A DNA stretch of 64,000 nucleotides, from contig NZ_CP096670.1 in NCBI RefSeq assembly GCF_023238625.1, forward strand, positions 280,501 to 344,500. The letters are read 5' to 3'. The notes below the pieces were generated by a model that worked only from the letters and a program-made list of their open reading frames with translations, was not told the DNA's origin and made no database searches. The position numbers were made by a program, and so were the translations under genes. Numbering within the stretch: position 1 is the first letter of the stretch; each line of letters begins with the position of its first letter. Below are positions 48,712 to 49,508 of the stretch, one piece after another. The stretch is from Agarivorans sp. TSD2052 (GTDB taxonomy: Bacteria; Pseudomonadota; Gammaproteobacteria; Enterobacterales; Celerinatantimonadaceae).

Positions 48712-48889
48712 CGCAGCTTGGTAGCGCATCGTCGCGAAGCTCATAAAGAGTGGGACCAGAGGATAACTTTGGTAAATACCAAGAACATAACGGTGATTAG
48801 CGCAGCTTGGTAGCGCATCGTCGCGAAGCTCATAAAGAGTGGGACCAGAGGGTAACTTTGGTAAATACCAAGAACATAACGGTGATTAG
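48712..48889 (+). repeat. Two 89-bp tandem units built from the tRNA-Pro 5' half
   Basis: Units 48712-48800 and 48801-48889. Each has the tRNA-Pro D arm (CGCAGCTTGGTAGCGCAT), then 22 foreign bases in place of the 5' side of the anticodon arm, then GGGACCAGAGG (anticodon-arm 3' side), a CTTTGGTA/TACCAAG hairpin, and CGGTGATTAG, the tRNA 5' end. The second unit's end is the start of the true tRNA-Pro. The two differ at one base seen (AGAGGATAAC against AGAGGGTAAC). No T arm is present, so these are not functional tRNAs. Confidence 0.92.
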
Positions 48890-48956
48890 CGCAGCTTGGT
48901 AGCGCATCTGGTTTGGGACCAGAGGGTCGGGAGTTCGAATCTCTCATCACCGACCA
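48880..48956 (+). tRNA. tRNA-Pro (anticodon TGG)
   Basis: 77 bases with encoded CCA. Acceptor CGGTGAT/ATCACCG, D arm GCGCAGCTTGGTAGCGC, anticodon arm TCTGG-TTTGGGA-CCAGA (anticodon TGG), T arm GGGAG-TTCGAAT-CTCTC. Its 5' half is repeated upstream and its 3' end downstream in tandem arrays, but this central copy is complete. Confidence 0.97.
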
Positions 48957-49508
48957 CATTACAAAAGGCCTGCTCATTGAGCGGGCTTTTTACTTTTAAG
49001 CGGTGTGCCAAATTTGTGTTTGTTAAGTCGGGAGTTCGTCTTCTAGCCTTGGCTCATCACCGACCACATTACAAAAGGCCTGCTCATTGAGCGGGCTTTT
49101 TACTTTTAAGCGGTGTGCCAAATTTGTGTTTGTTAAGTCGGGAGTTCGTCTTCTAGCCTTGGCTCATCACCGACCACATTACAAAAGGCCTGCTCATTGA
49201 GCGGGCTTTTTACTTTTAAGCGGTATGCCAAATTTGTGTTTGTTAAGTCGGGAGTTCGTCTTCTAGCCTTGGCTCATCACCGACCACATTACAAAAGGCC
49301 TGCTCATTGAGCGGGCTTTTTACTTTTAAGCGGTGTGCCAAATTTGTGTTTGTTAAGTCGGGAGTTCGTCTTCTAGCCTTGGCTCATCACCGACCACATT
49401 ACAAAAGGCCTGCTCATTGAGCGGGCTTTTTACTTTTAAGCGGTATGCCAAATTTGTGTTTGTTAAGTCGGGAGTTCGTCTTCTAGCCTTGGCTCATCAC
49501 CGACTACA
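48943..49508 (+). repeat. Five 110-bp tandem units carrying the tRNA-Pro 3' end and a terminator
   Basis: Units start at 48943, 49053, 49163, 49273 and 49383, with a sixth start at 49493 that stops after about 16 bases. Each contains CTCATCACCGACCACA (tRNA 3' strand with CCA), the hairpin GCCTGCTC/GAGCGGGC followed by TTTTT, about 50 unique bases, and GTCGGGAGTTCG, a copy of the T-arm 5' side, joined to 14 foreign bases (TCTTCTAGCCTTGG). The units are almost identical; one site reads GCGGTGTGCC in units 1, 2 and 4 and GCGGTATGCC in 3 and 5. Confidence 0.95.

Follow-up and report, generated by a model that had tools for sequence, protein, structure and literature searches.

Half-tRNA arrays around a tRNA-Pro gene of Agarivorans sp. 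TSD2052 and a conserved, putatively structured element in its upstream spacer

The tyrT transcript yields rtT RNA as a released product (PMC4986893, citing Bosl and Kersten 1991), and tyrT/rtT of Escherichia coli is the nearest described kind for the downstream part of the locus reported here (PMC4986893, PMC2965389). The 3' spacer 3'ETS-leuZ, 53 nt long, is a sponge for RyhB and RybB (PMC8166272), and tRNA-Other of Bacillus cereus is a pseudo-tRNA within a larger, probably regulatory RNA (PMC3399842); from these two cases, tRNA-linked spacers and pseudo-tRNAs can be functional. Here, we describe a tRNA-Pro gene of Agarivorans sp. TSD2052 that stands between two tandem arrays made from its own halves; "the window" is the whole stretch of DNA analyzed (64,000 nucleotides). 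Only the downstream array is of the tyrT type, being made of tandem repeats with the tRNA 3' end, placed 3' of the tRNA. The upstream element is, as judged from sequence comparison, real, conserved, structured, and outside Rfam.

The tRNA operon and its arrays

An Arg(CCG)-His(GTG)-Pro(TGG) tRNA operon lies in the window, with the upstream array between the His and Pro genes and the downstream array after the Pro gene.

48397..48425, + strand: candidate promoter of the tRNA operon, TGGACA-17-TAATAT, then a GC-rich stretch (consensus scan, sequence)
48445..48521, + strand: tRNA-Arg(CCG) (ARAGORN, Rfam RF00005)
48552..48627, + strand: tRNA-His(GTG) (ARAGORN, Rfam RF00005)
48702..48790, + strand: upstream half-tRNA element, copy 1 (repeat analysis; model R2, 57.7 bits)
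48791..48879, + strand: upstream half-tRNA element, copy 2 (repeat analysis; model R1, 96 bits; model R2, 75.1 bits)
48880..48956, + strand: complete tRNA-Pro(TGG), that is, tRNA-Pro(UGG) (ARAGORN; Rfam RF00005, 64.4 bits)
48957..49066, + strand: downstream unit 1, with terminator-like hairpin GCCTGCTCATTGAGCGGGC and T run, spacer, T-arm copy with 14-nt insert, and 3' acceptor strand with CCA (sequence, TRF)
49067..49176, + strand: downstream unit 2 (sequence, TRF)
49177..49286, + strand: downstream unit 3 (sequence, TRF)
49287..49396, + strand: downstream unit 4 (sequence, TRF)
49397..49506, + strand: downstream unit 5, CCA mutated to CTA (sequence, TRF)
49513..49547, + strand: last intrinsic terminator, 12-bp stem and T tail (terminator scan)

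Promoter consensus sites were no commoner in the window than in shuffles, so the position 5' of the operon is the main argument for the candidate promoter.

An earlier note on this DNA had read two 89-bp units upstream and five 110-bp units downstream of the tRNA-Pro gene, an anatomy borne out by TRF and by the sequence. TRF reported an upstream repeat at 48712-48908 (period 89, 2.2 copies, 99% match), which in phase with the tRNA makes two 89-bp units (48702-48879 together), and a downstream repeat at 48943-49508 (period 110, 5.1 copies, 99% match), which makes five 110-bp units (48957-49506 in total). ARAGORN and the Rfam tRNA model also agreed with the note that the central copy is the sole complete tRNA; they called that copy alone, and a cloverleaf with an anticodon was found in none of the array units.

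Copy 2 of the upstream element runs from the tRNA-Pro 5' half through a 21-nt insert, then through GGGACCAGAGG and a hairpin, to the tail TACCAAG, and its 3' end is the last base before tRNA-Pro. Copy 1 lacks the tRNA letters before CGCAGC and has a diverged 5' strand, in which CGACG is still able to pair with CGTCG of the insert. The insert, GTCGCGAAGCTCATAAAGAGT, replaces TGGTTT of the tRNA; the note had counted 22 bases here and 14 downstream, of which the downstream figure stands and the upstream one becomes 21 nt, or 22 nt under an alternative alignment. The insert holds GCGAAGC (48734-48740 and 48823-48829), a sequence known for forming an unusually stable DNA mini-hairpin.

Downstream, the 14-nt insert TCTTCTAGCCTTGG sits in the T-loop copy, and a search for pairing between it and its own unit gave no signal. 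The terminator-like hairpin and T run are present in each unit by reading, and a strict scan reports the last terminator only. Being repeats of the tRNA 3' end and terminator, these units would serve as reserve terminators; transcripts would mostly stop early, so that units 2 to 5 would be relevant only upon read-through.

The arrays are real. An assembly artifact was rejected: the source genome is a single contig (4,616,181 bases, about 4.6 Mb), and six congeners have homologous arrays with other copy numbers and sequences of their own. The comparison with relatives suggested in the earlier note showed the homologous operon in these congeners with 1 or 2 upstream units (about 86-89 bp) and a variable number of downstream units. 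A second cluster in the source genome, Pro-Arg(TCT)-His-Leu(TAG)-Pro, has one upstream unit before each Pro gene plus a 126-bp downstream array, and each tRNA-Pro(TGG) found in the two clusters has a unit directly 5'. Cluster 2 of one congener (G005) contains two tRNA-Pro genes without the upstream element, which is thus dispensable at a given gene, and in Motilimonas the unit is multiplied to five tandem copies, giving a range of zero to five elements per gene among close relatives. Copy number would shift via unequal recombination or slippage within the arrays. In cluster 2 of another congener (G006; L043, 550-644), an upstream unit lacks the conserved insert and has the perfect hairpin AGCGCAAATTTGCGCT in its stead.

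One relative (G229, locus L116) carries both kinds of insert in the same units. Downstream it has four units in tandem, each a tRNA-Pro-like sequence of full length that includes CCA and a terminator. Insert CGATTTTGAAATAAAGAGC lies at the anticodon loop of these units and insert CCAGTATTTGAAAGTCAG within the T-loop, and a single G-G interrupts the complementarity of GATTTTGAAATA and TATTTGAAAGTC. The two half-arrays of the window have their inserts at the same two places, and because the G229 units carry both, the half-arrays may be two halves of one older element, now separate, a derivation drawn from few loci.

Elsewhere in the window, TRF reported a 7-bp tandem repeat, AAAGAGC, at 3504-3558 (7.9 perfect copies), in which gain or loss of a copy would shift the reading frame if it lies inside a gene.

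Conservation and fold of the upstream element

Agarivorans, Aliagarivorans, and Motilimonas share the insert GTCGCGAAGCTCATAAAGAGT nearly letter for letter, in every case immediately 5' of tRNA-Pro(UGG), and the surrounding spacers differ. It is absent from every tRNA here, and in the source genome a 24-base insert core occurs at 4 sites, all in units beside tRNA-Pro, with none more at up to 3 mismatches. Of 395 genomes of the order, 12 (in 3 genera) contain an exact pattern around the insert, and model R1 matched 47 places in 21 of 119 relatives. Further families have elements with other inserts, by inspection mostly directly 5' of tRNA-Pro, with some copies 3' of it. A multi-family model, R2, reached at least 50 bits, among the matches listed, in 43 of 296 genomes of the order (the intact tRNA-Pro of the source genome scores 39-45 bits); these matches span eight families (f1, f6, f11, f12, f15, f16, f21, and f25), where f1 includes Agarivorans and Aliagarivorans and f12 includes Motilimonas. 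Across 229 genomes drawn from the class, the best R2 score apart from the source genome was 35 bits, under that of the intact tRNA-Pro, and no element turned up outside the order. Two patterns, one also matching intact tRNAs and one missing the source genome, were left out of the distribution evidence.

The earlier note had spoken of foreign bases where the tRNA half breaks off, which is misleading for the upstream insert: as the most conserved non-tRNA part, common to several families, it is part of the element and not a break scar. Chance or plain decay was likewise rejected for this insert (conservation across genera, sites in the source genome, fold). Recurring beside tRNA-Pro in eight families, the half-Pro element, as we call each upstream unit, gives the impression of a genuine RNA kept by selection and not of a scar or a sequencing glitch.

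Two further observations concern relatives. Loci L092 and L147 of family f11 (genomes G100 and G187) have copies with CATCGTCGCGAAGCGGG, almost the Agarivorans insert, beside copies with very different inserts, a mix that suggests exchange or convergence. A full-length tRNA-Pro-like copy with an anticodon-arm insert (L096, 132-215, tRNA strand; genome G069) was called tRNA-Lys(CTT) by ARAGORN, and annotation pipelines may list such copies as tRNAs.

The fold was evaluated on an alignment of 25 units from Agarivorans, Aliagarivorans, and Motilimonas. The named structure comprises the D-stem, a short insert hairpin, a hairpin begun by CCAGAGG, and a helix of the D-loop copy with the 3' tail of the unit. 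In these units, 93.9% of cells were paired, against 30-49% with slid partners, and the cells in which both partners had changed numbered 23, against a shuffle value of 6.9. The cell and covariation scores were attained by 0 of 500 shuffles; shuffling keeps the relatedness of the sequences, so that none of these figures can be read as a probability. The tail TACCAAG forms a helix with the D-loop copy CTTGGTA, in which 4 of 7 pairs have changed on both sides, and relatives have TTTGATA/TATCAAA, CTGGTA/TACCAG, and CTAGTA/TACTAG. A nested version, in which the D-loop/tail stem encloses three hairpins, fits equally well as the pseudoknot version. Pairing is also possible between the 5' strand CGGTGAT and ATCGTCG in the insert (in relatives, between GACGAT and ATCGTC), and this helix had no both-sided changes across families.

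The CCAGAGG hairpin is supported in all families: it is more stable when formed with its own 3' part than with those of other elements (0 of 20,000 permutations), and its stability exceeds that of shuffles in 37 of 38 elements and, among the held-out ones, in 10 of 11. Insert/tail pairing across all families was strong in the discovery set (0 of 20,000 permutations in one test; 0 of 50,000 globally and 58 of 50,000 within families in another), whose sequences are the same ones that suggested the idea; in held-out elements, all outside f1 and f12 (n = 11), it was not confirmed (26,553 of 50,000 permutations as good), and it is therefore claimed for f1 and f12 only. Overall, the evidence is strongest for these two families and thinner in the others.

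Possible roles

We read the half-Pro element as a conserved structured spacer of the tRNA-Pro precursor that would act in cis as a folding or processing module, with a probability of about 0.4. Each unit would be a transcribed spacer directly 5' of tRNA-Pro(UGG) that reuses the tRNA 5' half, has the insert in place of the anticodon arm, and probably folds on itself. RNase P removes the sequence 5' of a tRNA, and since the units are codirectional, lie between tRNA genes, and end at the tRNA 5' end, cotranscription and removal by RNase P are very likely. The element would fold first during transcription, keep its copy of the tRNA 5' half off the single tRNA 3' half, and thereby present the true tRNA to RNase P, with an RNA of roughly 90 nt possibly released at tRNA maturation. 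A fold model tested this insulation and is only mildly in favor: the native acceptor stem was predicted to form better when the unit kept its real insert than when the tRNA anticodon sequence stood there (mean 0.143 versus 0.044, P = 1.6e-4), the gain of real over shuffled inserts was not significant (P = 0.066), and in the nested fold model, the 5' strand of the unit still pairs with the tRNA 3' strand in most loci.

A wider proposal, which we put forward tentatively, is that of a new bacterial RNA family made from half of tRNA-Pro. It would have an insert for the anticodon arm and a fold complete in itself, probably with a pseudoknot; it would have been retained in eight families and tandem amplified, and would either work in trans after release or switch tRNA-Pro maturation.

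Action in trans by itself is less likely; the earlier note had proposed a source of regulatory tRNA fragments or a decoy, either of which may apply. Once excised by RNase P and by processing at its 3' end, the unit would be a stable small RNA serving as tRNA mimic, decoy, or sponge through binding to a protein or a second RNA, with tandem copies raising its dose; the conserved insert and fold, the up to five tandem copies in Motilimonas, and the full-length tRNA-like forms with CCA in relatives are consistent with this, and the leuZ 3' external spacer sponge (PMC8166272) and rtT RNA from the tyrT transcript (PMC4986893) are precedents. The inserts, however, are completely different between families, which would be unexpected if the partner were fixed, and a stable RNA from a 5' or internal tRNA spacer is unreported according to a review (PMC8166272).

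An unlikely alternative is neutral turnover, in which tRNA gene clusters give rise to partial tandem duplicates that stay similar through gene conversion with the intact gene, and the folds simply follow from the tRNA sequence. Copy numbers that vary freely among congeners, downstream units homogenized within a genome, and the many kinds of partial copies would be expected from it. Gene conversion can keep the tRNA-derived letters alike but not the insert, since the intact tRNA has no template for it from which conversion could conserve it across families; moreover, paired parts outside the tRNA covary.

It is improbable that the unit is one arm of a mutually exclusive fold switch, in which its tRNA-like 5' strand and that of the tRNA proper vie for the tRNA 3' half and so tune the yield of tRNA-Pro by temperature, growth rate, or ligand. 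The element was found at tRNA-Pro(UGG) only, and the competing pairing is highly probable in natural units (mean 0.71, nested fold model); shuffled inserts, however, give the same competition (0.78), which thus follows from the repeat itself, and the model handles nested pairs, with pseudoknots and cotranscriptional folding outside its scope.

The earlier note had also offered a scar of repeated integration at this tRNA. Such a scar, left by mobile elements that integrated or excised where the gene encodes the anticodon loop and T-loop, is very improbable: integrases do use these positions in tRNA genes, and the inserts lie there, but no integrase-like open reading frame was noticed nearby (those of at least 80 amino acids at 45000-53000, translations read by eye), the full-length unit of a relative had no plasmid or phage match, the copies found adjoin tRNA-Pro, and the element is conserved and folded across families. 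Of all these readings, the structured spacer acting in cis is the one we prefer.

Comparison with known systems

With the whole window searched at the gathering threshold, Rfam returned three tRNAs only, with the upstream element in no family, and the elements were unmatched at eight relatives' loci. The RtT covariance model gave no match at E ≤ 1 in 44000-54000, at the gathering threshold in the whole window, or at E ≤ 0.5 in the eight relatives' loci. Locus L092, in a g14 genome, has two Rfam TwoAYGGAY RNA matches (355-480 and 718-851, both +; 61.0 and 48.7 bits, gathering threshold 43). They lie past the 3' side of tRNA-Pro, and the tRNAs are on the other strand.

The earlier note had allowed that such arrays might be a well-described feature of the genus. 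They are present in the genus, and a search for Agarivorans tRNA repeats, the upstream element, or the Photobacterium cluster mentioned below found nothing in the searchable literature, which leaves most subscription journals outside. Photobacterium phosphoreum reportedly has a repetitive tRNA-Pro/tRNA-His gene cluster (1988), a repetition of these two genes that several relatives here also show, and that cluster may include related copies.

If functional, the element would be an unrecognized RNA class in the tRNA operons of many marine bacteria, where annotation sees empty spacer, and a case of a tRNA half turned into a different fold. For tRNA-adjacent repeats (tyrT and others), it offers a concrete case in which to ask whether they serve maturation, yield regulatory RNA, or are noise, and the zero to five copies per gene among close relatives make natural comparisons and simple deletions possible.

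The comparison with E. coli tyrT made in the earlier note is apt for the downstream array: in both, a tRNA operon contains tandem repeats of a unit that includes the tRNA 3' end. The two differ in the tRNA, the unit length, and the sequence, and there is no Rfam RtT match here; we know of no upstream array at tyrT built from the tRNA 5' half. 3'ETS-leuZ is similar in coming from a tRNA precursor but not from the tRNA itself; it is a 3' spacer, whereas the spacer here is 5' or internal and has a fold from a tRNA half. tRNA-Other is single and lies at a genomic island, with no tandem half arrays described, unlike the locus reported here.
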